A stretch of 64,000 bases of DNA, from positions 1,253,117 to 1,317,116 of the forward strand of contig NW_022985559.1 of NCBI RefSeq assembly GCF_010093815.1, in the 5' to 3' direction. Positions 26,666 through 63,416 of this stretch are shown in pieces. A program made the translations under genes and the position numbers. This stretch comes from Pseudovirgaria hyperparasitica. Lineage: Eukaryota > Ascomycota > Dothideomycetes > Acrospermales > Acrospermaceae. The notes below the pieces were generated by a model that saw only the letters and a program-made list of their open reading frames with translations, ran no database searches and was not told where the DNA came from. Position 1 is the stretch's first letter. Each line of letters begins with the position of its first letter.

Positions 26666-28049
26666 GATAGGCTACAGGCCCGTTGTGAGCAGGCAGTCAA
26701 CCTTGTTCCTTGTATACGAGGCCTCAACGAGATAGGCTTTCCACGAATACCACATTCAGGGTTGTACCACTGAGGCTCTGTTGATGATCAATTGGGGCGA
26801 GATAGGAAATCCACGAGCATGAATGCATATACATATAGCATCTTCGAATGAACCAGTCATCGACTCATCCGTGTATGACCCATACGACCTCTTGTGAGAT
26901 CACCGCTCTCTGTTTCGAACGGTGTCCAAAAACGACATGTCGAGTCTTGGGAGCAAAAGGCAGAAGCGATAGTGACTGTAGACATTGTGACTCAATTGGC
27001 GTGATTGTGTTTGCGGGGAGAAGGATTCACGTCAGTCTCAATCGGGTAGTACTAAGTGCCTACTAAATGCCTAAGGCAACAATAATAACGTCATATTGGT
27101 CTATCTTGACATGAAAGATTCTGGTATACATGTTATACTTTAAAATTATAAGCTTATTATAGTAGGTTAGATATAGAGATAAAGATTACTTGGTTAATGA
27201 GACCTATTAGTGATATTATAAGATAATAATATTGCATTCTAGACTAACTATTAATCAACTCTATGATAGATTACTAAGTTGATTGAAGCAAAAGTGATCA
27301 TAGTCAGTATTAAGTAGCAACGTTTTCTTATTTTCTAAAGTCTCAAGTCTGCTGGTTGACTACTATCCCCTCGTGGATTTCCACGTGAAGCCATCGGCTC
27401 ATCTTCGTTGATGACGAGTATTGCTAAGAGCTTACATCGATGCTCATCATTAATCACAAATAATGACGGGCATTGTTCCTGTACTAAGATAGACAGTAGC
27501 ATCCAAAGCCTTACTCCCATACAGTATCAGCCCCACCAATCAATCACCAGCCATCCATCCTTCACACACCCAGAACACCCAACCAGCAGGTAAGACACCC
27601 AGCAGAACAAGCCCATATACAATCAAGCCCGTCGGGTAGGATCCATACCCTCCATCTACAATAGCCTACCTTCATATTACTATATAAATCCTTCTTGCCC
27701 ACCAGACAGATCTTCCTTCTCTTCCTCACACGATCTTCTCGTAACAGAAGGCATGCCTTGGAGTTTATGCTCGTTGCTGTGCTGCCAGGTTACGATTGGT
27801 GTTTTATGCTTCCTACATTGTGTGTCCCCGCATGCGCATATCGTATGATGTGGTGATGAGCTTCATTATTAGCGGCTCGTGGTGGTGACGTGCAGCGCTG
27901 GATCTTGTGAGTATATGGATTGGGCTGTGAAAGACTATCTGAGAGCACTGGTATGGAGCTTCGAGTTATACTTATAGAGTACTATAATACCAGTACTGGT
28001 CTATCTCTATATATCTATAAGTCTAGTTTATCAGCATGAGTCAACAAAT
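26666..28049. other. Intergenic region with an AT-rich island
   Basis: No coding region found. About 27060-27330 is strongly AT-rich, with frequent TA steps and no repeats at its ends. The rest has ordinary composition and includes the promoter of the vWA-RBR gene. Confidence 0.55.
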
Positions 28050-32221: not shown

Positions 32222-35200
32222 TCAGAATGTCCTCTGAATAAAGAATTCGCGTCGATTGGTTCTGACCTTCGCACCCTCGCCCTTGAAAAGTTCCACCTTG
32301 AACTGCAGTTTCATCTTGGTCTCAGGATTCTTGAACACAGTGATAATGTCACCCGTGTGAATGCGCCCGAAGTTGGTTCGACCATTCTTATCAAGTTTGG
32401 TCAGATGGACACCATTGATCCAGATGCCCTGCGAGCTCCACGTTGTGATTCCTGTGTGTAGACCCTCTAGCTGTGTGAAATCTTGTCCGTTCTCCAGATA
32501 CTCTTTTATTTCTGGGTGATGAAACCATATTTCGAACGCCTTCTTAGGCACACGACTATCGTCGACCGGACGATATTGCACTGAGCATTCTGGCCAGCGG
32601 CCAAAGGAGGTATAGGGGCTATCTAGGTTAATTGTAATATTGGCGATGGAGTCAATACTAGTGAGGCGTCCAAGACGAGTATTCGGGCGGACGAATTGCG
32701 ATGATGATTCTGCTGAGTCCGTCCCTGGAGCACTCTGTGATGAGGGGAGATCTTTTGGCGTGATAGGGTTCTCAGACCCCATTTCCATGGTGGTTTGCGT
32801 GATAAAATCAAGGCCCATATCCCGGGCCGCTTGATCTATGACGTCAGTCTCGTCCCCAGAAGCCATAGGATTGCCTTGAATATGTGCATTCGAGACGGCG
32901 GGGAGAGCTGGATACGTGATAGGTATATTGTTGTTAGGCACAGCCTCACCTACGACGTTCGCTAGGGCTATTGCTGCGTTTCGGGATGTCACGTAGGCGT
33001 GTGGTTGCTGAGAGAAATCAATTCCACTAACCCTTGAAGCGTATTCAACGTTGTGAGTCGAAGGATCGTGAGGATCAAAAAAGGATGAGGCACTGATCGG
33101 AATCTCAGCTCGACGATTGAAGGGTTGCGCTGTTGCCTTGGGAGTCTCTTCCTCTTTTCCGCTGCTACCACTCAAATTAGTTACAGTTGAGGGAGGAACA
33201 TTGGGTGTATGCGGTGAATGGACTCCATTGGTGCCTTCCGAAAATGTATGAAGTGATGGTGCAGCCTGGTCCTGTATCAACTCCATATCGCGGAAGCGTG
33301 AGTCAGTGCCCTCCAAGCTAAGTCCTGTTGGGGAGGCCAGGTCATAGCTTCTTGACATGTTGAGATCAACAAACTCAGAATCGTCTGTGGATGTTGAAGC
33401 ATCTCGTAGGTCTAAGGCTTGGTGGGTTCTGGCATTCAAGACTCCAGAGCTATGTAAAGCAGAGCCACCTATTTCGCCAAACAAGCGAGGATTACGGTCG
33501 ACTTGTCGTGCTTGTGGATCCGGTAGAGTCTGACTATCGCCAGCCGTAGGACCATGTATCGAATCTGAAGAGTCGTCTCTCATGTCCTCCATATCGAGAT
33601 CGCGAGTCTGATTTCGTGGAAATAGAGGATCAGACTTAAATCTTTTAGACGGATACGGCCTAGTGACCATCGCTTTGAACTCTGGTGAGTCCAATGGATT
33701 CGGCTCATATTCATCGTCGAAACCTTGATGTTGCGCACCTAGACTCATCTGAGAGAATTCTTGCTCTGCGCCTGCGCTTGCTGGGTCCCACGTGTGCTCA
33801 AGTCCTTCTTCAACGTCCGAATCCACCTCTTCTTCTTGAATGACACCAAGACTAGAATTGTCTAATATGACGCTGCCATCATTTAACCACGGGTGTTTGA
33901 GACAATCCACCTCTGTGAGTCGTCTCGATGGGTCAGTATCCAACATTCGATGTAGCAGATCAATAGCGTCATCAGAAACCACTTCTTGTCGTAGAGGAGT
34001 ATCGTCCAGGTCAGTTGTCGTAATCTGGTTGAACATTCCTTTGCCATTGGTGTCAGTGATACCCTTAAAAGGAGGCTGTCCGCATAAAGCGAACCAGAGA
34101 ACGGCTGCGAAGGACCAAATATCTACGGATTGACTGTAGGAGTGGAATGGCTTCCGGCCATGCCCTCCAGGTCGACGTCTTTTGGAGCTTTGCGTATCCT
34201 TGAAGAATGGAAAAACTTCCGGAGCGCAGTATAGCAAGGTGCCACAGAATGTCTTCAGGAAGGTTGTGTCGTCCTTCACGACCTTGGACAGACCAAAATC
34301 CGTGAGTTTGACCTCGAATGGATCAAAACTAGCAATGAGAATATTGTCCGGTTTTATGTCGCGATGTGTGATGTCTCTCTGATGTAGATAGTGAAGAGCT
34401 TGGAGAATCTGGCGCGCCATCTGCTTTGCCCGATATTCTGGTAAGACCTTGTGCTCAGCCAAATAGCCTTGGAGATCTCCATGAGGTACGTATTCCATGA
34501 TGATATATAGGTATTTGTCGAAGTCGTGATAGTCAATATATTGCACTATGTTCGGATGGCGAAGGTCTTGCATGATGCGCATTTCATTATCAAGCCGTTG
34601 ATCAATCTGCCCATTTTTGATAAATCTTCGCTTCTCGAGTTCCTTAGCAGCTACCAGATTGCCGTCAAGCGCGGTTGCCAATAGATATACAGTCGCAAAA
34701 GCACCTTTACCAAGCTGGCCTACCACATTGTACTTCTTGTCGCCGTTCCAGTGCATTCCGAAGGTTTCCCTGTTGGAGGATAAGACTGATCCAACAGCAG
34801 TCTGATTGTTGTGGTTATGAACCTTCTGACTGTACGGCGCCTCGTCAACACCTTCTGGTAGTGGGGTGCCCAGATGCTTCACCTCAGCAAGACGACATGC
34901 TTGTCTGTAATTTCGAAGATTCTGTTCAAACTCCGCTTTGTAACCTTCTCTTGAAGGAAGTCGCACGATGAACTTAATATATTCATCTGGCTTAGTTGAA
35001 ACAATGTGAATGATGGCACCTGGCGTCAACATGCGCGTCGCTGTACCCCTAGACGATTTTGATTTGCCTTTCAGGTGGATATCGTCAATCATGGTCCCAT
35101 TGGTTGACGTATCCTCTAACATAACAATCCCAGTGTCTTTGACGAAAATGCGGAAGTGTCTGTTGCTAACACGTTTGACAGAGTCAACGCTCATGACTAC

Positions 35201-35566
35201 ATCACAAAAATGGGCGTTCCTTCCAAAGACGAAGCCCGACCATGGCTCCTTAGTCTTAGTCGAGAAACGTAGTGCCAAGTCGAGCCCGAAATGCGAAGTA
35301 TCCCCTGGGTTCTCAAGCTTGAACGTTTCTTGCTCTTCTAACGGCACTGGAGATCCATCTTTGGAAATAAGTGATTGGTTCTGTAGCACATGTTCCGGCG
35401 CATGTTGAGCTGTAGAAGCAACAATCCTATAGGCAGCCATAGAGGCAGGATGGAGAATGCAGATTACATCAGAAATGTCTCCCTCCACCAGGCCTGAGTT
35501 GTTTCGTCCAAACCGTCGAGGGTCATCCTTCCTTTGTGTTGACACTTGCGTTTGTGAGCCGTCCAT
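32222..35566 (-). CDS. FHA-domain Ser/Thr protein kinase (Rad53/Chk2-like)
   Basis: A checkpoint-type kinase of 1114 residues. FHA1 (about 100-200) shows FGRNAHFCDVVM, SNRHFRIFV and LEDTSTNGTMIDD, the phosphothreonine-binding pattern. The kinase domain (about 275-590) has the Gly loop GQLGKGAFATVYLL, the catalytic Lys in VAAKELEKR, HRDIKPDN, DFGLS, and APE, so it should be active; an insert rich in Arg/Lys/Gly follows APE. A long disordered Ser/Asp/Pro region comes next. A second FHA-like fold at the C-terminus (SFGRWPECSV, GITTWSSQGIWINGVHL, GRIHTGDIITVFK) lacks the usual S-R-x-H core. FHA-kinase-FHA is the Rad53 layout; Neurospora PRD-4 and MUS-59 are possible relatives, but which one is the orthologue is not settled here. 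The longer frame begins with GTG at 35590; the first ATG is 35566. Confidence 0.92.
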   Translation of the reverse strand: MDGSQTQVSTQRKDDPRRFGRNNSGLVEGDISDVICILHPASMAAYRIVASTAQHAPEHVLQNQSLISKDGSPVPLEEQETFKLENPGDTSHFGLDLALRFSTKTKEPWSGFVFGRNAHFCDVVMSVDSVKRVSNRHFRIFVKDTGIVMLEDTSTNGTMIDDIHLKGKSKSSRGTATRMLTPGAIIHIVSTKPDEYIKFIVRLPSREGYKAEFEQNLRNYRQACRLAEVKHLGTPLPEGVDEAPYSQKVHNHNNQTAVGSVLSSNRETFGMHWNGDKKYNVVGQLGKGAFATVYLLATALDGNLVAAKELEKRRFIKNGQIDQRLDNEMRIMQDLRHPNIVQYIDYHDFDKYLYIIMEYVPHGDLQGYLAEHKVLPEYRAKQMARQILQALHYLHQRDITHRDIKPDNILIASFDPFEVKLTDFGLSKVVKDDTTFLKTFCGTLLYCAPEVFPFFKDTQSSKRRRPGGHGRKPFHSYSQSVDIWSFAAVLWFALCGQPPFKGITDTNGKGMFNQITTTDLDDTPLRQEVVSDDAIDLLHRMLDTDPSRRLTEVDCLKHPWLNDGSVILDNSSLGVIQEEEVDSDVEEGLEHTWDPASAGAEQEFSQMSLGAQHQGFDDEYEPNPLDSPEFKAMVTRPYPSKRFKSDPLFPRNQTRDLDMEDMRDDSSDSIHGPTAGDSQTLPDPQARQVDRNPRLFGEIGGSALHSSGVLNARTHQALDLRDASTSTDDSEFVDLNMSRSYDLASPTGLSLEGTDSRFRDMELIQDQAAPSLHTFSEGTNGVHSPHTPNVPPSTVTNLSGSSGKEEETPKATAQPFNRRAEIPISASSFFDPHDPSTHNVEYASRVSGIDFSQQPHAYVTSRNAAIALANVVGEAVPNNNIPITYPALPAVSNAHIQGNPMASGDETDVIDQAARDMGLDFITQTTMEMGSENPITPKDLPSSQSAPGTDSAESSSQFVRPNTRLGRLTSIDSIANITINLDSPYTSFGRWPECSVQYRPVDDSRVPKKAFEIWFHHPEIKEYLENGQDFTQLEGLHTGITTWSSQGIWINGVHLTKLDKNGRTNFGRIHTGDIITVFKNPETKMKLQFKVELFKGEGAKVRTNRREFFIQRTF

Positions 35567-37916
35567 CTGGTATGATGATCGGCTATCCACCTAACCTCCA
35601 CGAGCCGCAGGAGAGATATAAGGGCACTACTGCTGGCGCCTAAAGAAGACCTTGGATAGACGAGCAAGTCTCTGGCCGTTGTGGATGTGTTATGTGAATT
35701 CGAGGACGAAAAAGACTTGTGACTGCGTCGAAGGTAAGAGCAGAAATGGAGGACAGACAAATGTGTAACTAATGTCGAGGCCGACTGCACAGTTGGAGCA
35801 GTGGTTTTGAGATATACTGAGACGTCCCACCTTGTTCAATTCGTCTCGTACAGCTCAAGCGCCAGTCCTGTATCTTCCCGGGCGTCACCGTCTACGACTC
35901 TCCGGGAGGGTCGACGTTCCACCCCCCGGGGCAATATGAACACGTCAATGGCTGTGGCTTTTGTATTGGTTCAAGCACAAGAGTTCCAGCTCTTCTCTGC
36001 GACGGGCTAAATAGTATGAGGCGGAGGGCTGAGCAGTAGGATCAGGGTCGATGACACTCGAACTCGTCAATAAGGGCTGGGTAATTGCTATAGAGCATAG
36101 CATTCATTTCATGACCGAGATGACGCGTGGCGAACTCAGCAGCTACGTCGGCGAACACGACGGTGGTAATGTGGCAGGTCTTGCGTTTGCTCAAGTACGG
36201 AGATGTGAAGCGGACAGAGTAGATGTGCGGCGATGTGGGGTGTGAGATTTGGGTATTTGAGGTTATGACTCATAAATAGGAGTTATCTAGAAACATAAAG
36301 AAAGCATTGCAGAGTGAAGGACGCGACCTTAGAGGAGCGGGGAGCGGAATCTGTAGGCAGAGTCCGTAACTTTTGAGATGGTTGTTGCTTTGGTGATAAT
36401 TAAGCTTTCTGGTTGCCTGGCGCGCAAGCCTTCAGAAACCTGAGGCATACATAATCGATAGTGACTAGAAAGCCTATATACAGCTGAAGGGATGCTTCAG
36501 GTGTTTTGTTTGCGTATCTCGGATCCCAATGCGTGTATTTGGATACCCATATGCAATAGTTCTCATGATTAGAATCATCATGCGCGTTCGTTAGATCGTG
36601 AGTGCCCATAGCCCTTACACTGTTCCCTTTCCGGTGAATCCCTTCAACTCGCCCGCGGAGGTGACAGCTGATTCCAAGACAGGAACATCTTCACAACTTT
36701 TTGGCATGATCACCACGCCAGCACGGCCCTCTTCGCCTTCGGCCACAGTCTTCGAGATGATCTCTTTCACCCAAGACCGGCCATCTGATTCAAACATATG
36801 AGCCAATTCAGTGTCGAGGTGCTCATAACCTTCGCTGATCTTGTGTATACCACGCGATCCAGCGGAGGAGCCGACGACTACGGACCAAGATCTTCTTCTC
36901 CACAGATTCGCATGGCCATGGATTACGGGCGGGGCATACCATATTCATTGCATGCGGGCCTCGCGATCCTTAGATGCTTGCTGACTCCCGTCTCGAGTAA
37001 TGTGACCCCCAGTATTGTTTGCCTTACCTGTGGAACATTCGCCGCCGAGTTCGGGGCTACTTGCTCACTGGGGTGTGTCTTTGCACGACTGATGTTATCA
37101 TTGTAGTGCGTTTCTTCTTGATTGGCTTCTTGGTGTCAAAATCCAATTTTTCACGCGTGGCAAGGCTAGAGAAAGGGTGTATTATCCCAACTCCTCTGCT
37201 TGGTGAGCGAAATGGATAGCCGCGTCAACCCTTTTTGTTCGAGGTTCATTGCCTTTCAATGCACATGGCATGTCGCGCAAGGAACACACCATCATATAAA
37301 AGACCTGTCCAGATTGCACACTCGACACAAGTATGTACAAGTAGGCATACTATGAGGCATGTAAGGTAATCAGCGATAGTCAACGATGAGATGCATGTTC
37401 GGATATGCATGAACGTTGTAGTCAAAATTTTAGCGGATGGATTGGGCACAATAATTAGCATCTATCATGCATGAGTAGTTGGGTTGAGTGGATATCCATA
37501 ATGATATAATCTCAAAGGCCAATTGGCGAGAGTGTGCACTGCCTAGTGTTGCGGCCTCAGGATAGCCTAAATACCTCGGGAGCTACTAATTAACCTTAAG
37601 AAGCTACCTATACACCCTTCAGCTCTGCGTAGATTCTGGAGCTTGTATTCACTACTACCTCAGAGCTTGCTTATCCGACAGGCTTGTACATTGCGCCCAC
37701 CCTCACTGTTGACTTACTATACTCACTTGAAGCGTGGTCGCGCGTTGATACCTGAATCGTTCCACTGCGCAAGCTTCGCTTGTACCGAGGCCCATCGGCT
37801 TAGGAGGACTCACGGCGCGGTATCGCGAGACTTTGACAGAGTCGAGCATATCAGCACTCCCTCACCAACGCCGACTTACCATCGCCTCCAAAAGCATATG
37901 CCACTCCTATAACGTC
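35567..37916. promoter_or_regulatory. Divergent intergenic region FHA kinase / PEX6
   Basis: 2.35 kb between two outward-facing genes. It contains one minus-strand frame of interest (listed separately, 36615-36930) and otherwise no coding signal. AT-rich segments occur around 37360-37620. Confidence 0.5.
36615..36930 (-). other. Unassigned open frame, possible gene relic or terminal exon
   Basis: The minus strand is open for about 105 codons without a good start, ending in TAA at 36615. Its composition is protein-like: it includes WSVVVGSSAGSRGIHKISEG, then YEHLDTELAHMFESDG and ends GELKGFTGKGTV. I do not recognise the family. There is no clear upstream exon, so it may be a remnant or the last exon of an unresolved gene. 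Confidence 0.25.
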
Positions 37917-40900
37917 ATGGATCTTCAGAATGGCTCCAAAGGAGTGAAAAGAAGGAGGCGGCGAAGGCTTGATCGGCCTGCCATATCTGCTCATCTGCTC
38001 CTAGATGACCGTGCGAAGGGCGAGATTGGTACCCTCTCAGAGGATCTGTTTTCTGATCTCTTCCCAGGCTATGAGCCGCTTGCTGGTAGGACTATTATTC
38101 TACGAACGACCCAGATTATGCAGACTAGTACTGACATTTACAGGGCGAGTACACTATGTCGCCATTTGTCCATGGCTTCCACAGCCTCTCAGCTCTCCGA
38201 ACGAAGCAGCTTGGACAATTCTTCCTGTAAAGCAGTCCGAAAAGTCAAGCTCGCAAGACGTAAAGCCTCACTCCACAGTTCAGTTCCCAGCTAGCTCGTT
38301 TGCTCTGCAAGCATTCATACACAATCTCAGCTCCCAATCCCCGCATAGAACCGTTAAGAGAGATGCCCCAATTGAAATACGAATACTAGATGTCGTACCT
38401 TTGGGCCTAGATACAATATATGTCAGTTTAGATACTGATGCGCTGTGCAGGCTGGACGATGTGCACGCAAAGTTTGGAGGTGGCTTTGGCACATCGCGGC
38501 CGAATGGAGCCATCAGCGGGCCTCGCCAGAAGCATTTAAGCAATGAGAAGGGCCCAAGGAAGAGGTCACTAGAGGAAGTCTCACAGCAAGAGAAAAATTG
38601 GAAAATAGCTGTTCGAGAAGCTCTCCAGATCCCGAGGGTTGTTCATACAGGAATCCTTCTCCCTCTGCCGTTACCAGCCCATCCAATCACACACGTCCCG
38701 CCGCCACCCGCAAAGATTACCGCCTGTGAGCCAGTTTCCCAAGGCCTCATACTTCCTTCGACAAAGATAGTAGTCTTGCAGTCCCATGGGTCTTCGAGAT
38801 CTAGAGCGCTTGTTCCGACCAGTCCAGTTTTGAATGGTCCAGTCGAAGAAGATGAGGACACATCTAATGAACAGTTCTACTCTGCCGTCGAAGAGCGTGG
38901 CTCTTCCAATGGATCATCGCCTCCCGACGAAGCTGCCTCCTCGACAGATCAATTTGACTCTGAAATGTCTGGTACCGATGCAGGTGATCTCTCGGACGAT
39001 CCCGAAGACATGATATCTCTAAGTGCGCCTACACTACCACCGCAATCCTCAGGAGTTCTCTCTGCCTTCACGTCGGCCACACCTAGACCCTTCGGTCTGC
39101 ATACGACCGGCATACAGAGTCCAGGATCGGTCTTTTCTAGCTTTACCGCAACTACTGCTCGAGGGCCAAGCGCAAATGGGAAAGTGTTCAAGACGCAAGG
39201 TCTATTGGAACGAATTCCAGACGAGTCTTTGCATCCCAAGCCTGGTACTGAAGACGACGAAGAAGCTCGAGTTTTTGTAGATACCAACACCTTGGTCCGT
39301 CTTGGCTGTTTCTCAGGTGATTGGGTTAAACTCGAAGTTAGTGCTGAGCCTCAAAGCTTCAGCCTTGGGTCTTGGGGTCTAGGCTCATTTGGTAACGACG
39401 AAGATGAAGAAGAAGATACACTCTGGAGAGTCGCCAGAATCTACGGCTTGCCAGATATACTTGCGAAGAAGACTCAGCGATACAATCTTAAAGAGGCCGC
39501 GGATCGTCGTTCAAGTATCATCAACTTTCTACAACCAACCAGCCCTTCTCCCGTATATCTTCCTCCTACGCTCCTGACGAATCTCGGCGAGCCTAGCCAT
39601 CTAAAAATTGCGTCGTTAGCGCTCAATCAGCAACAGCATGGCTTTGCTCGTGCCTCGGTGCAAAAACCGCGCCTGGGAACATCAACATTGCCACCATTTG
39701 CAAAGGAGGTCACGCTTCTGAAGCTGTTTACACCCTTGTCGAGTGAGAGACAGCTTCAACCAAGTCTCTTTGCGGCTCTGAAGCACCACTTCGAGCAAAA
39801 GCGCCGCTTGATCAAAAGCGGGGATCTAATTGGGATCGCTATTGATGAGAATCTAGGAAAAGCTATATTTCAGGGTAACAACCCTGAGGATGATGTAGAG
39901 AATGAGGAACTTCTTTCCAGACCGAAGGCAGATACGATATTGTCGGCTGACCCGGGTACGTGGTGCTCTAAGTCGGTCGCATGGTTCAAAGTTGGCGCTA
40001 TATCCAGATATCAATCAGAGTCTGTCGACAATCAAGACGAAAACTGGGGTGGAGTCTTCTCGGTGGATTCAGCCAGCACGAAAATGATTCAAGCCGGAAC
40101 CGAACAGGGTAAAGTACCCTCTACATTGACCGTACCATGGCAGTACTATTTCGGTGTAAGAAGACTGCCTGCATCGCAAGGCGGACCCAAGAATAAGGGT
40201 AGAGAATTGAAGGATGCACCAAAGTCATATGTCTCAAATCTACAGCGCCGATTACGGGAGCTTATTTCTGCTGCGACGAGCTCGAGGGCTATTCATCTAG
40301 GACTGCCACCGATCGCAATTTTGATTACATCAACTCAACGGCATATCGGCAAAGCTACAGTTGTCTCTCAAGCCTGTGACGACCTTGGACTGCACACATT
40401 TGCAATCGATGCATTTGATATCTTGACGGAAGGTGGGGCTGGAGGAGGTGGTGATTACAAGACGGACACATTCCTCAAAACCCGTGCAGAACGGGGGCTC
40501 GCTTGCGGAGCGGAATACACAGCCTTACTAATAAAGCATGTCGAAGCCTTGAACGCCGATCGGATGGTGTCATCGTTGAAGGAGATACTGAACGAATCAC
40601 GAGTGCTGGTTGCAACAACGACCGAAGTCGACAAAGTACCAGACGGTATCCGGAGCATTTTCACACATGAGCTGGAGATGACTGCGCCGGACGAGAATGA
40701 ACGAGAGGGTATTCTGCGGAACATAGTCATGAATTCTGGTGTCCCGCTGTCCCCCGAAGTCGAACTCTCGACGATCGCTATGAAGACTGCTGCCTTGGTC
40801 GCTGGAGATCTTGTCGACGTCGTCGACCGTGCGATTGTCGCGAAACAAAACAGAATCGAGGATCTGGCACGAACAGCATCGACGGCCCTTCCTCCAAATT

Positions 40901-42453
40901 CTCAGACTGTGCTTCCTCGTGACATTGAGCTTTCCGGTGGCATTGCGAGTGTATCCCTTACTGCTGCAGACTTTGTGAAAGCAGTGGATGCCGCTCGTAA
41001 GAATTTTGCAGACGCGATTGGTGCTCCGAAAATTCCCAATGTGGGCTGGTCTGATGTTGGCGGTCTGACCCATGTGAAGGACGCTCTTATGGAGACGATA
41101 CAGCTACCCCTAGCGCGACCGGAACTATTTGCAAAAGGAATGAAGAAGAGAAGTGGCATTCTCTTTTATGGCCCTCCAGGTACCGGCAAGACACTCCTCG
41201 CTAAAGCTATCGCAACCGAGTTTAGTCTCAATTTCTTCTCTGTTAAAGGCCCGGAGCTGTTGAACATGTACATTGGTGAGTCTGAGGCCAATGTTCGGAG
41301 AGTGTTCCAGCGTGCGCGAGACGCCAGGCCTTGCGTCGTATTCTTTGACGAGCTCGACTCTGTTGCACCCAAACGAGGTAATCAAGGCGACAGTGGCGGT
41401 GTCATGGATCGCATTGTCAGCCAGCTTCTCGCAGAGTTGGATGGCATGAGCAATGGAGAAGAAGGCGGCGGTGGCGTCTTCGTCATTGGCGCAACCAACA
41501 GGCCTGATTTGCTTGACCAGGCACTGCTGCGGCCAGGTCGATTCGATAAAATGCTTTACCTGGGCGTCTCTGATGACCATGACAAACAGCTCACAATTCT
41601 GGAAGCACTCACGAGAAAGTAAGTACAAAGAAAAGCCTGACTGACGCAATAATGTGCTGACATGATCTCCAGGTTCACACTGTCTCCGCAATTATCGCTT
41701 CGGAATATTGCCAACACTCTCCCGTTTACCTACACAGGAGCGGATCTGTACGCACTATGCTCCGATGCAATGCTCAAAGCGATCACTCGTCGCGCGCTCT
41801 CGGTTGATGCCAAGGTGAAGGCCCATAACTCAAAGTTAGCGCCAGGTGCATTACCCATTTCAGTCGCTTACTTCTTCGATCATCTCGCCACGGCCGAAGA
41901 TACGGAAGTAATGGTAGAAGAAGTCGATTTCATGGACGCGCAAAGGGAACTAGTACCCAGTGTCAGTCAAGAGGAACTTAACCACTATGACCGTGTCCGA
42001 AAGACTTTCGAGGGTGCAGCAACGAAGAAAGACGAAGGCTCGAATCTCCGTTTACGCGAAGCTGGAAACCCTGATGATGATACAGCTAAACAGATGACCC
42101 CAGAGCAAGCAGCCGAGCAGCAGGCGCTTTCAAGGATAATGGGCCATATTGATGGCCTCGTAGACACAGGCAAAGACGCTGGACTCTGGAAGGTGGACAA
42201 GAGTAAAATCAGAGGCAAAGGCCCGGTCATGAATCACACTGTATCTGACGGGAAACGCCTTCCTTCTCAAGGAAGCGACAAGAGTGCGAAGCCGCAATTC
42301 GATTCCACAGACGACGAGGATGAGTACATCATTCGCACAGATCATCTCAAGCGGAATGGTTCTATCAGAGGTAAGGGGAAAGGAAAGGGAAAGATCCCCG
42401 ATGCAGAGGCCTCCGGTGATGGTGGTGATGATGAAGGGCTGTACGATGACTGA
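37917..42453 (+). CDS. PEX6: Peroxin-6, AAA+ ATPase
   Basis: With Pex1 it forms the hexamer that extracts ubiquitinated Pex5 from the peroxisomal membrane. Exons: 37917-38085, 38144-41618 and 41673-42453; introns of 58 and 54 bp (GTAGGA and GTAAGT donors, ACAG and CCAG acceptors) in matching phase. The product is 1474 residues, normal for filamentous fungi. It starts with a basic cluster (KRRRRRRL), then LSEDLFSDLFP. The D1 ATPase is degenerate (ITSTQRHIGKA in place of a Walker A), as known for Pex6. D2 is complete: Walker A GPPGTGKT (about residue 1065), Walker B VVFFDELDS (about 1120) and the second region of homology IGATNRPDLLDQALLRPGRF. The C-terminus carries an acidic/Lys-Gly-rich tail. 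An in-frame TTG lies upstream, but 37917 is the first ATG. Confidence 0.96.
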
Positions 42454-46337: not shown

Positions 46338-46951
46338 CGTAAGCTCGTATCACGCCAAACAAAAAACGTGATGCATTCTTCTAGCTCGGGAGAACCCAAA
46401 GTCTGCACGAGGACGCACCTAAAGAGTATAAATGAACAGAAACCCACTTCAAAAATTCCATACCGATAACATCCATCCCACCCAATCTCGCCACAGCAAA
46501 AACATCAAGATTCCACCAATGCACAATCCCATCACAAACACAATCTCTCTATCCAATTCCAAGCCTATAGACCAGAAATCCCATAGTAGGCTATAACCCA
46601 AGTTTGCCTGACTTTTTATGTCCATGCACGCTTACATGAGATATCCAAAAACAACCCCTCTGATATCTTTTAACACCTATTCTATTTGATCTAGATAGAC
46701 TGTGTAGTTTGAGGGATCAACTTTCGGAAGGGGTTCTCAAAGTTCGTCTAGTGGATAGTACTGTGAATATCGCCGTAAGATTGAATTACCTGCCCTTCTG
46801 ATCTTCTGAACGTACTACCCATCTCACCCATCCAGCCCACCGTACCCGACCGTGAAACCAGAAACAAAAGGTGTAAGGAAGGGTAAGCACGTCACAAGAA
46901 CACAAACGTGGCAAAGCCACCATCTACCCATTCACCCCTCTATTACTATAC

Positions 46952-47047
46952 CTACCCTCCATATCTACCCTCCATACCTACCCTCCATACCTACCCTCCA
47001 TACCTATCCTCCATATCTACCCTCCATACCTACCCTCCATACCTATA
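46952..47047. repeat. 13-bp tandem repeat
   Basis: About seven near-identical copies of CTACCCTCCATAC, differing at one or two positions (ATAT for ATAC, CTAT for CTAC). Confidence 0.9.
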
Positions 47048-47424: not shown

Positions 47425-47625
47425 TATGATGGTGATGATGGTGATGATGGTGATGATGGTGATGATGGTGATGATGGTGATGATGGTGATGATGGTGATG
47501 ATGGTGATGATGGTGATGATNNNNNNNNNNATGATGGTGATGATGGTGATGATGGTGATGATGGTGATGATGGTGATGATGGTGATGATGGTGATGATGG
47601 TGATGATGGTGATGATGGTGATGAT
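47425..47625. repeat. 9-bp microsatellite GATGATGGT with assembly gap
   Basis: More than 20 visible copies of GATGATGGT flank ten Ns (47521-47530). The true copy number is unknown because the gap lies inside the array. One plus frame reads as Asp-Gly repeats and the minus strand as poly-His; neither has supporting coding context. Confidence 0.95.
47521..47530. other. Assembly gap (10 Ns)
   Basis: Ten ambiguous bases within the 9-bp microsatellite; the size is probably a placeholder. Confidence 0.98.
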
Positions 47626-47857: not shown

Positions 47858-50800
47858 TTATTCCTCATCCTCGAAGAAGTTTAGAATGGCCTTCACGGCC
47901 ATTGGGCCAAGCCCGTGAGGTGGGTAGCACAGATACGACGGATCGCCCTCGGCACCCAGCTTCTCTCTAAACTCCGACTTGTTCGTGAGCTTGAGCTCAG
48001 AAGTGATGGCTTTGTACGCCTTGCTCAGGACCTTGACTCTCGTCTTCTTCAGATTGTGGCCGGGCGTGAACTCGGAGCTGGCACCACTACCGAACGTGAC
48101 ACTTTCGCAGCCCTTGGCTGCAAGAGCCTTAAGCCCGTGCGAGACAATGTACTCGATCGAACCTGAAGGGGCACCAGGGAAATCGAGCGCGTACTTGACT
48201 TGCCAGCCATGGTCAGGGGAGAGCTGGCACAGGACGAGCAAGCAACAAATCTCGCCGTCTTTGTCTTGCGCGTAGTGATATTGACGATGCTCCTGGTCTT
48301 GCCATGGATGAATGTCAGTAAGATGCATTTGCTTGCCTTTGCGACCCTTGAGCCAGTCTTCGACTCGCTTATCAATCCTGTCCTTGATTTCCTGTGGTAT
48401 TTCTGCGCCTAGTAGATAGTCATGGATCTTGACACCTTCCTTCTCTGCGTGTCTGATCTTGCGCTGAAGGTCATTGTCATGCGCGGCAGCATTCTTTGAG
48501 GTATCGAGACGTTGCTCGGCGACTACGGAAAAGGTACGCCAGTTGAATCTGTTTGCGAGAATCTCCTCCATCGGGGCACCCACAAGCAGCCATATGGGTT
48601 TCAAGTGACGCTCTTTTGTGATATATTTTAGGAACGCGGTCGCGATCTTGATGTATTGAGACTGGTGACAGAGTGGGTCGCCGGTGATTATGGCGTAGCT
48701 GTCGATTTGCTGGAAACCGACCGCAGCCCCAGTCTCGTTGTCTCGCCAGATCTCCATTCGAGGCTCCAGCCAGGATGTGTTCGTAGCGTCTCCATAATTT
48801 GCTATCAGCTTCTCAATTGGTTGAAAGTCCAGATGTGCCGTGACTCGATCGGATCCTTCCCACGGAGGGTGCATCGTGCTGGCTTCTGGGTGGCGTAGCT
48901 GCTTGACGATTGGCTTCTCTGGCAGGCTCTTTGGATCACGAGGATACATTGAGGCATGTCGAATGTCACCAAGGTTTAGGATAAGCATCAGAATGCGCTC
49001 TAAACCGATACCGCCGCCACCATGGGGCGGCGCACCCCATTCGAAACCTTGGATATAGTCATCCATGGACCCACGATCGATTTTTAGCTTCTCCATCTTC
49101 TTCAATAGCATGGTTGCGTCATGGATACGCTGACCACCGCTAAGAATCTCCTGCCCGCGCACAAAAATGTCGAAGGAGTTTGTCCAGGTCTCGTCATTAG
49201 GATCTACCATGGCATAAAAAGGCCGTGCAGACGCCGGGAATTTGTCCAGGACGTAATAGTCGGTTCCGTAGGTCTGCTTGATGACCTTACCAAGCTGTAT
49301 CTCGTCTCGAGTACCCAGATCTTCATCAATCGGTAACTCATTCCCTTCTTCGTCTCTCCAACCAGACTCATTCAAGAGCTTGATGGCATCTTTAAAAGGG
49401 ATTATTGGTGTTTTATCTAGCCATACCAAGTCTTCGTGCGGATATTGCTTCTTGACGACATCAATTTCGCGGCGATAGTTCTTGTACAACCCTTCGAAGA
49501 TATGCTTGAAAGTACCATCGAGGACTCTGAGCACCTCATGGTAATGTTCGTCGATGGCCATCTCAATATCGAGACCAGTGTACTCGGTCAAGTGGCGATG
49601 GGTATTACTGTTCTCTGCTCTAAATACAGCGCCGATTTCGTAAACACGACCAAAGTCACCGGCAATCGACATCTGTTTAGCCAGTTGAGGGCTTTGTGCC
49701 AGGAAGGCAGGCCTACCGAAGTAGTCAATCTTGAAGACACTCGCACCAGATTCAGTAGCACCGCCTTGTAGTTTTGGTGTGTGGATTTCGATGAAGCCTT
49801 GAGTATCCAGGTAGCCGCGGAACAGATTGCAAATGCCTGATTGAACGCGGAAGATACTCTGCGAAGTAGTGGTACGGAGATCGATGACCCTGTTTGCCAG
49901 CCTCGTTCTGTCGGACACCTTGACTCGATGGTCTCCATCATGCTGTGTTTCAGGGGTAGGTATCTCTGCTTCATTGACACTGAAGGGTAGGACTTCAGTC
50001 ACTTGGCCCTCGACGTGCAGAGAGTGGACTGAGATCTCAATATTGTGTATGGTCGTACCGGTAACCTGACCCTGACTGACTTTGGGCTCCTGCACGACGC
50101 CCCCAACTAGGACAACGCTCTCGACATCCAAATGCTCGGCCCAGTACACGAAAAACTCGGAAACATGAGCGTGTTCTGTCAGGACTCCCTGAATCGTCGA
50201 GACGCCCTGGCGGAAAACCAAGAAGACCAGCTTGGCGCTCATCTTACGGAGGTGATGGACACGAGCTCTGAAGAAAACAGTCTTGCCCACATCGTTGGGT
50301 GTGAGAGTGGTGACATCGACCCTATCTTCGTGTTTCCATTCGCCTGCATAGATATTGGCACCCTTGACACCATATTTTGCTCTTGCTTCAGCGCTCTCCT
50401 CAGTCTTTGCACGTTCCTCCATGTCTTTCCGTTTCTTTTCTGCTTGCTGTTGGGCTTCTTCTCTGAGCTTTTTCCTCAACTCTTGGTGTTCTTGCTTTTC
50501 GTGCTTCTTTAATTGGTTCTTGCTCATGGGCTCACCATCGCGATTGAGGGGCAATTCGTCGGCGGAGGAGTCGTCGGCGTCGCCAAGGCCAAGCTTCCCT
50601 TTCAAAGCGCGAATCGGACTGTGGGAGCCTAGACTGTTGCGAGAAAATGTGCCACTGCTTCGAGGAAAGACACCACTGTTGCGTGGTGACTGGCCACGGT
50701 TAACGCCTCTGACAGGAGGCGAGGCAACACCTATTGGCGAGGCGCCATTAGGAGTTGCAGCCTCTGGAGACTTGACTTGATCGGTAGAAGAGTGGATGAT

Positions 50801-50923
50801 GCCAGATCTCACTGTTTCGTCGTCGCTGGCAGATTGGCTGTTGCTGCTGCTGCCACCAATCTTGAGCTTGTTGAGGGCCTGCTTGAGCGAGCTCATGCGT
50901 TTCTGAGCCGCTGGTTCAGGCAT
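47858..50923 (-). CDS. erdS: ErdS: AspRS-DUF2156 fusion, ergosteryl-3beta-O-L-aspartate synthase
   Basis: A single frame of 1021 residues. After a Ser-rich N-terminus and a Lys/Glu coiled coil comes a class IIb aspartyl-tRNA synthetase: an OB-fold anticodon-binding domain (VGKTVFFRARVHHLRKM), motif 2 FRAENSNTHRHLTEYTGLDI, and motif 3 GGGIGLERILMLIL followed by LGDIRHASMYPRDP. From about residue 690 to 1015 the protein continues into a DUF2156 aminoacyl-transferase domain (WLLVGAPMEEI, VKYALDFPGAPSGSIEYIVS, CESVTFGSGASSEFTPG) related to the C-terminal domain of bacterial MprF. This fusion is known in fungi as ErdS: it charges tRNA-Asp and passes aspartate to the 3-beta-hydroxyl of ergosterol. 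Membrane association is expected but no span is seen. Start is ATG 50923; a TTG lies five codons earlier. No hydrolase of the ErdH type adjoins it here, and a stand-alone AspRS would be needed elsewhere. Confidence 0.95.
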   Translation of the reverse strand: MPEPAAQKRMSSLKQALNKLKIGGSSSNSQSASDDETVRSGIIHSSTDQVKSPEAATPNGASPIGVASPPVRGVNRGQSPRNSGVFPRSSGTFSRNSLGSHSPIRALKGKLGLGDADDSSADELPLNRDGEPMSKNQLKKHEKQEHQELRKKLREEAQQQAEKKRKDMEERAKTEESAEARAKYGVKGANIYAGEWKHEDRVDVTTLTPNDVGKTVFFRARVHHLRKMSAKLVFLVFRQGVSTIQGVLTEHAHVSEFFVYWAEHLDVESVVLVGGVVQEPKVSQGQVTGTTIHNIEISVHSLHVEGQVTEVLPFSVNEAEIPTPETQHDGDHRVKVSDRTRLANRVIDLRTTTSQSIFRVQSGICNLFRGYLDTQGFIEIHTPKLQGGATESGASVFKIDYFGRPAFLAQSPQLAKQMSIAGDFGRVYEIGAVFRAENSNTHRHLTEYTGLDIEMAIDEHYHEVLRVLDGTFKHIFEGLYKNYRREIDVVKKQYPHEDLVWLDKTPIIPFKDAIKLLNESGWRDEEGNELPIDEDLGTRDEIQLGKVIKQTYGTDYYVLDKFPASARPFYAMVDPNDETWTNSFDIFVRGQEILSGGQRIHDATMLLKKMEKLKIDRGSMDDYIQGFEWGAPPHGGGGIGLERILMLILNLGDIRHASMYPRDPKSLPEKPIVKQLRHPEASTMHPPWEGSDRVTAHLDFQPIEKLIANYGDATNTSWLEPRMEIWRDNETGAAVGFQQIDSYAIITGDPLCHQSQYIKIATAFLKYITKERHLKPIWLLVGAPMEEILANRFNWRTFSVVAEQRLDTSKNAAAHDNDLQRKIRHAEKEGVKIHDYLLGAEIPQEIKDRIDKRVEDWLKGRKGKQMHLTDIHPWQDQEHRQYHYAQDKDGEICCLLVLCQLSPDHGWQVKYALDFPGAPSGSIEYIVSHGLKALAAKGCESVTFGSGASSEFTPGHNLKKTRVKVLSKAYKAITSELKLTNKSEFREKLGAEGDPSYLCYPPHGLGPMAVKAILNFFEDEE

Positions 50924-52505
50924 GGTGAAGTATCCCAAGCTCTAGTGAGGAGTAACAAAGAACGAACAAAGACGGCAGACGCGTAGAGATGTTGGGTCAT
51001 GCACCGATAGTATTGTTTGTGTATCCGGCTGGTGGGGCAAGTCTAAGAGGAAAGAAATGACGAGCGGAAGCTGGCTAGCGACAGAGGCTGGAGCTAGTAA
51101 TGTACGCGATATACGGAATGGATACTAGCTGCAGGTTGAATGGTAAAGGCTGCCGAGTGGTAGCGTGTGTATGTATGTGTATGCGTATGCGTACGTAGGT
51201 GTATGTGTGGTATTATGGCCAATATTGAAGCGATGGAGACAACAGACAAGACGTGTGAAGGATGCTAATAAGCAAGCAAAAGGACAAAACAGAGCGCGCA
51301 GTTTGTGCGTCTCCGTGCCCGAAGGAGGCGTCAAAGGCCGGGATAGCTCGGTGACTCGGTTGTTGACAAGGTTGAGTGGAGCGAGGTCAGATATCGATGG
51401 CAGCTGGGGTTGCTCATTATGACGTAACGTGCGTGTGCGTCTTTCAGCACTGGGCAGCAGCAGGTGAACACAAAGAAAGAATACAGATCTACAGAGTCAC
51501 AGACACGCCCCCAACTCTTTCAATTTACAGTCACCAATTCATCGCATGAACATTATCATTATCGTGTATTGTGCCCTTGCAACCCGTGGCGTTCTCTCGC
51601 TGTTCCGCCAGCCGAGTGCCCAGCCGGTTGCCGGAAAAGCTTGCTGCTGCCCATGATCGCATTCCCTGAATCCCTGCGAAATGCCCGTTGTCAATAACAT
51701 GGCATTCCTCCTGTACACCTCCACCGCCAAGCTAGCTAAGATCTAAATACAAATACTACTGCCTCTGCTGCCAAGGAGTCTTTGACTCAATACTTGTTAT
51801 GCATTCTAAGAAGCCGTCCACATATCCTGGCTGGGATAGATAGATAGGGACGAAGCATCATAAGGTAATACATGTCATCTCCCGAGGTCGATAACCCTTG
51901 CGCTGAGTAAGCAAAGCCTCGTCACGGTTCGCTTCGGCAAGGACGACTCACGAGCGTGCCTTCCTTGACTAATCACCGCTAGCTACTACCAACTACAACT
52001 AACTACCACTGATATCACTACTATCACCGGCCACTATCACCACCACCACCACCGCCACCAACCTCGTCTCGACCGTCCATTTCAATTGCACGTACACAGT
52101 AGACGATATATAGCATTACTCATGCATCCAGACCTTCAGTTGCTCGTCTAGCCTTCTGATAGCCTCAAAGCTTCTTCACAACGATATGCAGGTCATTGGT
52201 CAGCATTGGGCATGATTAAATGTGCAGGTATGTATGCAAGTACGCGAGCAGGCATGCCGCACGTGTCCATGAGCTTGCTTCAATCTCTGACAGTAGCCTA
52301 CTGCTATTACTGACATAAGCCAGTAATCCTCAAAAGTACTGTATCAACAATAAGCTCGGCAGCGACTATTCTTGCCACCCGGGCAAGGAGCAAGTGGCAG
52401 ATGCCCTCACAGTCTAGCCGCATTCGGTCAGTATCAGATACAGGAATTTGATGTAAACAGCAGTCAGCAAATATCACGATGCATATATAGGTACAAACAA
52501 CACTC
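50924..52505. other. Intergenic region, promoter of erdS
   Basis: About 1.6 kb with no recognised gene. A CACCAC/ACC-rich microsatellite-like stretch lies near 52036-52062. Several 60-85-codon frames are low in complexity or overlap on both strands. Confidence 0.55.
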
Positions 52506-54140
52506 CTAATTTATCATCACATCAAACCCACCCCAATCATCAAACTCATCCGCAAACTTCAGAGCGGCCTTGAGATAGAACTGCTCCTCCTCATCACCAC
52601 CCCACGTCTCAGCCGCAACCTTCATCGCTCGCAGTGCTATACAGACGCACAACAAATGTCAGTCCTAACTCTCTCATATAGAACACAAACTTCAAGAAAA
52701 ACAAAGAGAAGACAAAAAGCTCACCTTTGACAAAATGCGCATCCGCACTCCACGCACTCCCTAATGCCTCCTTCTGCACATGGCCCCATCCCCTCCCTGC
52801 AACATCCACCTCCGCGATCCGCTCCATCTCAACCCCAGGCCTCATCTGCGCCACATACACCGCGAGCACAAATAGCCACCATTGCCGCACAAGCACCACA
52901 TGCCACCGCGCCGGTACAACCCCTAGCAACACCCGCACCGCATGGCTGCTCGTCAACAAGTGACACAAGAAGAAATCAAACCTCTGGCCGTGTGTTCGAC
53001 TCGCGACCAGTAACCCCATAGCTGCCCTCTGCGCACGCTCAAACGCCCCCCGCGCACCATCTACATCCGCACCTGCATCAGCATCAGTCGCTGCCGTCCA
53101 CGTCCACGCATTCCAGTGCTCCAACAGCGCCTCTTCCGCCTGCTCGAACACAACATCCACATTCTTTGGCTTACGTGAATCGAAAAGGCCATCGAAGCGC
53201 GCATCTGTGCGCACCCGCGCGAGGATGACAAGGGGGTCGGCGGACGGGTTGGCGGGCGGCTGCGTGTATGCCGGGTCGTCGAGGTACTTGGCGTGCGCAG
53301 GCGTATAGAAACATGTGCCGAGAGCGAGGGCTTCGATGGCGAGGGTGGAGCTGGAGAGTTCGTATGCGTATGCAAGGTGGATTAATGGATGGCCGACTGC
53401 GTGGTAGGTTGCATGTGTCAGTATATGTATATATATCTAGTGTGTCGCGTGTCTTGGTTGCTATGATAGAGAAAAGGAGAGAGGGAGTGCGTACGGCCGC
53501 TGACGAGCATTTCGTGAATTAGTGGCGCGGGCCCGGCGAAGAGGAAGTCAGAGAGCAATTGATGCCAGTCGTAGCCGTTGAGCACAAGTTGGTCCTCGAA
53601 GAAGTCGATGAAGGCGCGCTGATACCTAGTTCGAGTATTGTGAGAATTGCATGTTTCTAAACAGGCTCTTGACAGGTCTGAACTATGCTATCAGTACATA
53701 CTCTCGCTTGCCTAGAAAATCCCGCCAGTCCGACAGCGAAATCTCGCCTGGTGACTCTTGCCATGGCTCGAGATTCTTCGTCTCCTTTTCGTATATCTCA
53801 TGGAGATGCTCGGATGTGCCTCCTAGACAGAACGCCGATCCGAGAATCTAGTGGCCCTTTTTATCAGAAACATTTCGCTCATGCCTAAAATCTAAAACTA
53901 CGTTGCCCAACTCACATGAGGTGTGTGGTTATGGAATCGGAGCTCGTTGTATATTATCGAGTGGTTGGCATGATTGGCTTTGATCAGGTGCTTCAGCGTA
54001 CGCATCCGCTTCTCCGTTCCCGTTTCCGTGTCGAAGATTTGCACACTTGGTATGTCAATGGCCTCTGGCCGTGCTCCCCAGCCGAAGCTGCTGAGCGTCG
54101 GCAACTTATTTGCAAGCTTTGTGAAGTGTGATGAGAACAT
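52506..54140 (-). CDS. Questin-oxidase-like protein (DUF4243 family)
   Basis: Five exons: 54140-53916, 53847-53702, 53625-53495, 53396-52725 and 52636-52506. Introns of 68, 76, 98 and 88 bp with GTGAGT, GTATGT, GTACGC and GTGAGC donors; all phases match and the product is 434 residues. The family includes fungal Baeyer-Villiger-type oxidases such as questin oxidase and AflY. Supporting features are the His-rich N-terminus (LIKANHANHSIIYNELRFHN, NHTPH), the LLSDFLFAGPAPLIHEMLVS segment, and LGHPLIHLAYAYELSSSTLA followed by IEALALGTC. The C-terminus is acidic and ends FDDWGGFDVMIN. No polyketide synthase or other cluster gene is nearby, so a role in secondary metabolism is not implied by context. 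The sense strand turns from C-rich to G-rich near 53,215. Confidence 0.88.
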
Positions 54141-54494: not shown

Positions 54495-56310
54495 CTAGTA
54501 CTCGCCCTCCTCACCACCTTCCTCAAGGCTGTCAGAGGCCACCTCCTCGTAATCTTTCTCGAGAGCAGCAAGATCCTCACGAGCCTCGGAGAATTCACCT
54601 TCCTCCATACCTTCTCCAACGTACCAGTGAACGAAGGCACGCTTGCTGTACATGAGGTCGAACTTGTGGTCAAGACGAGACCAGGCTTCGGCAATAGCGG
54701 TTGTGTTGCTAAGCATAGACACACTACGGTCGACAGCGGCAAGCTCGCTGCCGGGAACAGCCATTGGCTTACTAGTAAGATGTCAGTACGGAGCATGGAA
54801 ATAATGCCGAACTGCTTACGTGTAATTGATACCGAGCTTGAAACCAGTTGGGCACCACTCAACAAGGTTAAATGAGGCCTTAGCCTTCAGAGCAGCAACA
54901 GCAGCGTTGCAATCACGTGGGACTACATCACCGCGGTACAGTAGAGCGACAGCCATATACTTGCCGTTGCGGGGGTCGCAGACCACCATCTGGTTGTTTG
55001 GCTCGAAACCTTGTGATAGTCAGCTTTCACTATACCCATGAGGATCCTGCCTTTCAATTACGTACATTGGAAGGTAAGATCATGGACCTTAAAGCTCTCG
55101 TGGGTGCTCTTCTGGCTGGAGATGACAGGTGCGTAGCTGATGAGCGGGTAGTGAATACGCGGGTACGGTACCAAATTGGTCTGGAACTCGTTCAAATCAA
55201 CGTTGAGAGCACCATCGAAACGCAGAGATGAAGTAATGGAGCTGACGACCTGAGCAATGAGTCGATTGAGGTGCTCGTAGCTGGGACGGGTAATGTCTAG
55301 GCTGCGACGGCAGATATCGTAGACAGCCTCATTGTCGACGAGGAACGTGCAGTCGGAGTTCTCAATGGTACTGTGGGTGGACAGAACGGCATTGTAAGGC
55401 TCGACTACGGCGGTAGACACACGGGGAGCCGGGTAAACTGCAAACTCAAGCTTGCACTTCTTCCCGTAGTCAGTCGACAGGCGCTCCAGGAGAAGGGCGC
55501 CGAAACCGGAACCGGTACCTCCACCAAACGAGTGAAAGATGAGGAAGCCCTGGAGGGAGGAGCAGTTGTCTGTGTAGACATTAGCTTCATTGACGACTCT
55601 CAGTCGGCTTGGCAGCTTACCAGCAACGCGACGGATGCGGTCGATAACGCTGTCGACAAGCTCCTTTCCAATTGTGTAGTGGCCACGAGCATCTGTACGT
55701 CCCTTAGCATCTTGCCTTTCCAGCCCTTCATTGTAGCATACAGTTGTTTGCAGCATCTTCCTTGCCGCTGATCAAAAGCTCAGGGTGAAACAATTGGCGG
55801 TAGGCGCCGGTGCGAATCTCATCAATAGGCTATCCATGTTCAGTGGTGATCGTTGCTTCGAAGCATTGCAGGACGCAAACGTACCGATGGGTCCAAGTCG
55901 ACGAAGATTGAACGAGGGACGTATTTTCCGCTTCCAGTCTCGGTAAAGAATGTCTCATACGATCCAGGATCGACGGTATCCTTCTTCTCGGGATCTGGGC
56001 GACCATCCTGCTTGAGGCCGTGCTCGAGGAGGTACCTGAGGACTTGGGCATCAGTAATTGTATCTCAGAACGTTCGTAGCGAGGGTTTGAGACGATTGTA
56101 GGTGTATCTTAGGGCGTCTTACAGCTCCCAGGCGCTGTTACCAAGCTGGGTACCAGCCTGGCCGATGTGAAGGTGGCAGATCTAGAATTGAGGAGGATTG
56201 TGTTAGCGATGGGATTCGGAGATTGTAGTCAGGGGCTGTCTGGAAGCTTCGCCATGCATCAAGACGCGTCGATATTGAAGCAATTGGGGGTTACACACCT
56301 CTCCTCTCAT
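54495..56310 (-). CDS. Alpha-tubulin
   Basis: Microtubule subunit; binds GTP at the non-exchangeable site. Eight exons: 56310-56299, 56181-56123, 56035-55885, 55829-55742, 55692-55621, 55569-55066, 55009-54820 and 54771-54495. Introns run from 48 to 117 bp and phases close to give exactly 450 residues, the canonical length. The first coding exon is only 12 nt (MRGE). Clear marks are [39 protein letters not shown], the tubulin signature [22 protein letters not shown], and the C-terminal [20 protein letters not shown] followed by an acidic tail ending in Glu-Tyr, so the tyrosinatable C-terminus is present. Fungi usually carry one or two alpha-tubulin genes; whether this is the main or second isotype cannot be told here. 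Confidence 0.97.
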
Positions 56311-61324: not shown

Positions 61325-63416
61325 TTACTGGAAGCTCTTGGTGAAGCTTGTGATGAGTTCCTTCAGCTTGCCTTCCAGATCCTTGCTCAAGGCACCCTCC
61401 TTGTCAATCGTGGCCAAAAAGTCAGATTCGTTGCTCTTGAGATGGGCCAAGAAGTCGGACTCCCACTGCAGAATCTTGTTAACGGGTATGTTGTCCAAGT
61501 AACCGTTGATACCAGCATAGATGAGTGGCACCATCTCGTTAACGGCCATAGGAGAATATTGCTTCTGCTTGAGGAGCTCGGTCAAACGCTCACCACGAGA
61601 CAGAGTCTGTTTGGTTGCAGCATCGAGATCAGAACCGAATTGAGCGAAGGCAGCGACTTCACGGTATTGAGCCAAGAAAAGCTTCAAGCTACCAGCGACC
61701 TGCTTCATGGCCTTCAATTGGGCCGAGGAACCGACACGTGAGACAGACAGACCGACGTTGATGGCTGGTCGGATACCCTTGTAGAAGAGCTCAGCCTCCA
61801 AGAAGATTTGACCGTCGGTGATGGAGATGACGTTGGTAGGAATGTAAGCGGACACGTCACCACCCTGAGTCTCAATGATGGGCAGAGCAGTGAGAGATCC
61901 GCCACCGTGCTTGTCATTCATCTTGGCGGCACGCTCCAGCAGACGAGAGTGGAGGTAGAAGACGTCACCGGGGTAGGCCTCACGACCAGGAGGACGACGG
62001 AGCAGAAGCGACATTTGACGGTAGGCGACGGCCTGCTTGGACAAATCATCAAAGATGATGACGGCGTGCTTTCCGTTGTCGCGGAACCCTGGGAAAAGTC
62101 AGTGTCAGAGAGCACATAGGTGTATTTACTGAGCCGTGGAGCGCTTTATGAAAGGGGCGCACTTACACTCTCCCATGGAGGTACCAGTGAATGGCGCGAT
62201 GTATTGCAGAGGAGCGGCTTCAGAGGCAGTGGCGGCAACGACAATGGTGTACTTCATGGCGTCATTCTCCTCAAGAGTCTTGACGAGCTGCGCGACGGTG
62301 GAACGCTTCTGACCAACAGCAACGTACACACAGTACAGCTTCTTGCTCTCGTCGTTGCCATCATTCCATCGCTTCTGGTTCAACATGGCGTCAAGAGCAA
62401 CGGCGGTCTTTCCAGTTTGACGATCACCAATAATCAGTTCACGTTGTCCACGACCAATGGGTACCATGGCGTCGACGGATTTCAATCCAGTCTGCACAGG
62501 CTGGTTCACTGAGCGACGAGGCAGAATACCAGGGGCCTTGACTTGAGCACGGCGGCGCTCAGTGGTCTTGATGGGACCCTTTCCGTCGATGGGGTTACCG
62601 AGAGCATCGACAACGCGGCCAAGAAGCTCTGGACCGACACCAACGTCGACCTGGTTTTGTTTTAGAACTGTCTTTGACAAGCAAAAATGGTCTCAACTTA
62701 CAATCTCACCGGTACGCTTGACCGTCTCGCCTTCCTTGACCAAACGATCAGAACCGAAGAGCACGACACCGACCTGGCCGGCTTCCAAGTTCATACACAT
62801 GCCCTTCACCCCTGAGGCGAACCTGTTGATCGTTATTACGCGCATCCTTGAAACACTATTCTCTCGAGACTACATACTCGACTAGCTCCTCGGCTTGTAC
62901 GTTGGCCATACCATGGACACGAGCGATACCATCACTGTTTATCGACTGTTAGCGAGGCTCTGCCTTCACAAGTAATGTCCATGTTTCTAATTACCCGACT
63001 GAGAGGACACGGCCAGTTTCGGCGAGGGAAGCCTCCTCCTGGACACCACGAATCCGCTGTTCGAGGATAGAGGAGACCTCAGTAGGGGCAGCCTTCGCGT
63101 CGGAGGCATAGGATCGAAGTTGCTTTGATGCGGTGTTGAAAGTTGCCGGTGTTGACCGAGTCTGCGTGGTTGAAAAAATGTTAGCCCTCGGTATGAATAG
63201 GCCTGGTACAACCAGGACGAAGCTCAACAAAGCTCGAAACCTGCATCACCACGACTCTGAAAGCCTTGGAAAGTCTAGAGAGCAGCTTCGGAATGAAGCA
63301 ATTGATGGAATTGATGCTGTGCCGGACTGATTGGGTTGACTGACAGATGCGATTCTGCTGGATGCAGAAATTGCCGCGACCCGGCGGCCGGACTGGCGGA
63401 TGGCTCTTGAGAACAT
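61325..63416 (-). CDS. ATP1: Mitochondrial ATP synthase subunit alpha
   Basis: F1 regulatory/catalytic-interface subunit in the mitochondrial matrix. Six exons: 63416-63345, 63161-62995, 62934-62878, 62822-62702, 62650-62167 and 62088-61325, with introns of 183, 60, 55, 51 and 78 bp; phases match and give 554 residues. The N-terminus is a typical Arg/Ser-rich matrix-targeting signal ([20 protein letters not shown]). Core motifs: [11 protein letters not shown], the P-loop [56 protein letters not shown] across the last splice, and the family signature region [17 protein letters not shown]. The first intron, after residue 24, is the longest and uses a GTCAGT donor, so this junction is the least certain. 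Confidence 0.96.

Follow-up and report, generated by a model that had tools for sequence, protein, structure and literature searches.

The ergosteryl-3beta-O-L-aspartate synthase ErdS was reportedly described by Yakobov et al. in PNAS in 2020, and the primary papers are said to be Yakobov et al. 2020 and 2022. As summarized in the relevant part of a review, ErdS is a fusion of aspartyl-tRNA synthetase (AspRS) with DUF2156 that produces Erg-Asp (PMC9437257), and both aspartate- and glycine-ergosterol are cited for Aspergillus fumigatus in passages of two further papers (PMC12186260, PMC10449517). Ergosteryl-3beta-O-glycine synthase, ErgS, is likewise a sterol-specific aminoacyl-tRNA transferase, according to the portion of PMC10449517 that deals with it. 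Here we analyzed a window of 64,000 nucleotides from Pseudovirgaria hyperparasitica (C11:1253117-1317116), together with a genome search covering 35.0 Mb in 59 contigs. One gene in the window very probably encodes ErdS, which, judging from the sequence, would charge tRNA-Asp and aspartylate ergosterol.

Gene and domain architecture

The ErdS-type gene is read on the minus strand from an ATG start to a terminal stop (50923 to 47858) with zero internal stops. Because the probability of its 1,027-codon stop-to-stop span (47858..50941) is (61/64)^1027 ~ 4e-22 by hand arithmetic, the frame is not due to chance. The protein begins with a variable N-terminal stretch, followed by an OB-fold, a complete AspRS core of class II and, at the C-terminus, DUF2156; the parts have the following coordinates in the window:

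47858..50923, minus strand: ErdS-type gene, 1,021 aa, single coding frame without introns or stops (frame reading, Pfam, PDB match)
50461..50923, minus strand: N-terminal stretch, residues ~1-154 (boundary approximate), low-complexity and basic (frame reading, PDB match)
50021..50272, minus strand: OB-fold anticodon-binding domain PF01336, residues 218-301 (Pfam)
48935..49909, minus strand: class II aminoacyl-tRNA synthetase core PF00152, residues 339-663 (Pfam, NCBIfam, motifs)
48008..48769, minus strand: DUF2156 / LPG_synthase_C aminoacyl-transferase domain PF09924, residues 719-972 (Pfam, search of the C-terminal part against PDB)

The strongest Pfam match is to tRNA-synt_2, the Asp/Lys/Asn group (PF00152), at 246.1 bits against a cut-off of 25, while the tRNA_anti-codon match barely exceeds its threshold (27.3 bits versus 27). 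LPG_synthase_C, of which we take DUF2156 to be the former name, scores 53.4 bits (cut-off 27.5) in the whole protein and 56.7 bits when the C-terminal 354 residues are scanned separately. Conserved class II motifs are present in the synthetase core: AENSNTHRH begins at residue 436 and GGGGIGLERILML at 635, which we take to be motifs 2 and 3, respectively. The best NCBIfam model is the AspRS equivalog TIGR00458 (414.2 bits versus a cut-off of 368.4), which, as a model of non-discriminating AspRS, does not prove the tRNA choice of the protein. The aspartate model NF003483 also exceeds its cut-off, and the AsnRS, LysRS and LysX models all score below theirs.

The initial annotation had placed the gene at the same coordinates and described a complete class II AspRS joined in one frame to a C-terminal DUF2156 domain. 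Frame reading and profile scans (PF00152, TIGR00458, PF09924) bear out both the coordinates and the domain calls. It had also staked its reading on a DUF2156 match within residues 690-1015 and proposed scanning the C-terminal half by itself against Pfam; PF09924 was recovered in that region in both scans.

Solved relatives and paralogues

A phmmer search against PDB sequences returned 9w9f, 9w9e and 9w9g as the top three matches, at 1139.6, 1117.2 and 1114.7 bits. The alignment to 9w9f spans residues 85-1019 with 507 of 935 positions identical (~54%, counted from the printed match line), so that ~46% of aligned residues are unlike, and nothing in the matched chains corresponds to the first 84 residues. 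All three chains share the domain order of the ErdS-type protein. The depositors' title for them is 'Aspartate--tRNA ligase, cytoplasmic'; by their architecture, we infer that they are ErdS. The fourth match, yeast AspRS (443.7 bits), covers the synthetase part only. When searched alone, the C-terminal part finds the same three chains (178/352 identical to 9w9e), and, beyond them, just two matches at the level of chance (E 0.58 and 0.65).

The acceptor is not readable from sequence. Various lipids serve DUF2156 enzymes, as stated in parts of PMC9437257 and, with regard to the glycine-specific ErgS, of PMC10449517. A fusion with this domain architecture could thus work in the manner of ErdS on another lipid or sterol and yield a different product. 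Given that the transferase part shares 178 of 352 residues with the solved fusion chains, with order unchanged, we consider this quite unlikely and retain the assignment to ErdS.

In a profile search of the contigs, PF09924 occurs at one place in the genome, the ErdS-type gene, and the C-terminal part matches nothing in the genome except itself at E values up to 10. On these two results, no stand-alone ErgS-like gene was detected in a six-frame search of the genome, a type of search that can miss intron-cut genes. Scans for relatives elsewhere used short exact peptide patterns from one sequence and gave 81 pattern stretches in prokaryote genomes and one in viral contigs, with none confirmed in either set; since such patterns catch close relatives only, these scans are no evidence against the fusion in other genomes.

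The genome has 12 places with PF00152, including the ErdS-type gene itself (L009). Eight of these frames (L010-L017) were typed by NCBIfam, with L018, L019 and L020 left out. Three are lysine-type (L011, L016, L017) and two asparagine-type (L012, L013), while L014 and L015 are exons of a bacterial/mitochondrial-type AspRS, each of which falls short of the whole-protein cut-off, in keeping with a protein split into exons. The remaining one (L010) is the stand-alone AspRS that the initial annotation had suggested looking for. It was found by genome protein search as a second AspRS-like frame (G000:C9:808767-810407) with 43% identity to residues 152-696 of the ErdS-type protein. Its main exon of 519 residues contains PF00152 and PF01336 without PF09924, which makes it unfused, and is identical to the ErdS synthetase part at 214 of 526 positions (about 41%). 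Because the same genome holds this unfused AspRS as well as the bacterial/mitochondrial-type exons, the AspRS-DUF2156 fusion is an extra paralogue. It shares with ErdS the presence of a separate AspRS, and the C9 enzyme is the one predicted to act in translation.

With its complete synthetase part, the fusion might be mainly a cytosolic AspRS with an accessory tail; we rejected this as very unlikely because the main exon of the C9 AspRS scores higher on TIGR00458, at 479.7 bits, than the fusion does. Two adjacent genes, or an assembly artefact fusing them, were likewise rejected as extremely improbable, since one stop-free frame crosses the domain junction and single PDB chains align across it nearly end to end.

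Hydrolase families and neighboring genes

Searches of the genome for alpha/beta-hydrolases gave 42 matches to PF12697, 25 to PF07859, 5 to PF10340 and at least 19 to PF00561 (18 of 65 candidates scored), none of them assignable to the hydrolase ErdH. The Say1_Mug180 family (PF10340) was included on our assumption of a possible likeness between ErdH and Say1, a steryl deacetylase. A literature search on the name ErdH returned no title about such an enzyme. Across the families tested, the nearest match on the contig is at C11:1355359-1355841, ~51 kb from the ErdS-type gene. Among the window frames scanned (30 of the 52 with at least 150 codons, namely the ErdS-type frame and 29 others), alpha/beta-hydrolase families are absent. 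These results agree with the initial annotation, which saw no usual partner hydrolase next to the gene: all matches of the four families (PF00561 with 18 of 65 candidates scored) fall outside the window. ErdH itself is assigned to none of them.

Upstream of the ErdS-type gene lie a questin-oxidase-like frame (52609-53436, minus strand), a tubulin exon (55058-55771, minus strand) and an ATP synthase alpha/beta subunit in two frames (61325-62692, minus strand). On its downstream side, a 9-base unit GATGATGGT is repeated at 47425-47625, ~230 bases 3' of the stop. The size of this repeat is not fixed because ten N at 47521-47530 probably represent a gap in a simple repeat. A pyrimidine-rich tandem repeat with a unit like CTACCCTCCATAC follows at 46940-47045. 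Farther along are a peroxisomal AAA ATPase of the PEX6 type, spread over several frames (37749-42453, plus strand), a protein kinase with an FHA domain (32222-35590, minus strand), presumably checkpoint-kinase-like by its build, and a 1,100-codon frame (23369-26671, minus strand) whose IBR and VWA matches are weak and under the Pfam cut-offs. Scans of the window for tRNA genes and Rfam families gave no matches.

Proposed activity and comparison with known systems

The earlier interpretation of the gene as ErdS is supported by the domain order, both Pfam domains, the near full-length similarity to the fusion chains and the unfused AspRS, with the activity predicted by analogy. If the enzyme resembles published ErdS in its two reactions, its amino acid and its acceptor sterol, the AspRS part would use aspartate and ATP to form activated Asp and load it on tRNA-Asp, and the C-terminal GNAT-type DUF2156 part would move Asp from Asp-tRNA-Asp into an ester at the 3beta-OH of ergosterol. 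The product would be Erg-Asp in membranes, and the separate AspRS gene would serve protein synthesis.

In the simple picture of one DUF2156 gene in the genome, the fungus would be a clean case for studying the function of Erg-Asp where Erg-Gly is missing. A further-reaching reading, in which Erg-Asp would be the sole tRNA-made steryl amino acid, the hydrolase would be unlinked or lost, and aspartylation would be regulated or irreversible, unlike in Aspergillus, seems to us unlikely. The ErdS-type gene alone raises no new question.

LysX of mycobacteria and corynebacteria, as outlined in the review, also combines a class II synthetase with an MprF/DUF2156-type transferase, yet acts with lysine on bacterial glycerolipids (PMC9437257). 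Its synthetase is C-terminal by NCBIfam match positions, unlike that of the gene here, which scores just 58.4 bits on the whole-protein LysX model (cut-off 742) with the LysRS models also under cut-off. ErgS takes Gly-tRNA from an independent glycyl-tRNA synthetase, in the account given by part of PMC10449517, and its DUF2156 domain has no synthetase fusion, whereas the one PF09924 place found in this genome is fused to AspRS. ErdS, as the review passage describes it, has AspRS followed by DUF2156 in a single chain plus a separate AspRS gene (PMC9437257), and the same is found here. Set against this description of ErdS, no decisive difference was seen. The gene is very probably a new orthologue of published ErdS, a sound and useful annotation and no new kind of system, adding one well-formed ErdS, with an unfused AspRS in the same genome, to the published family.
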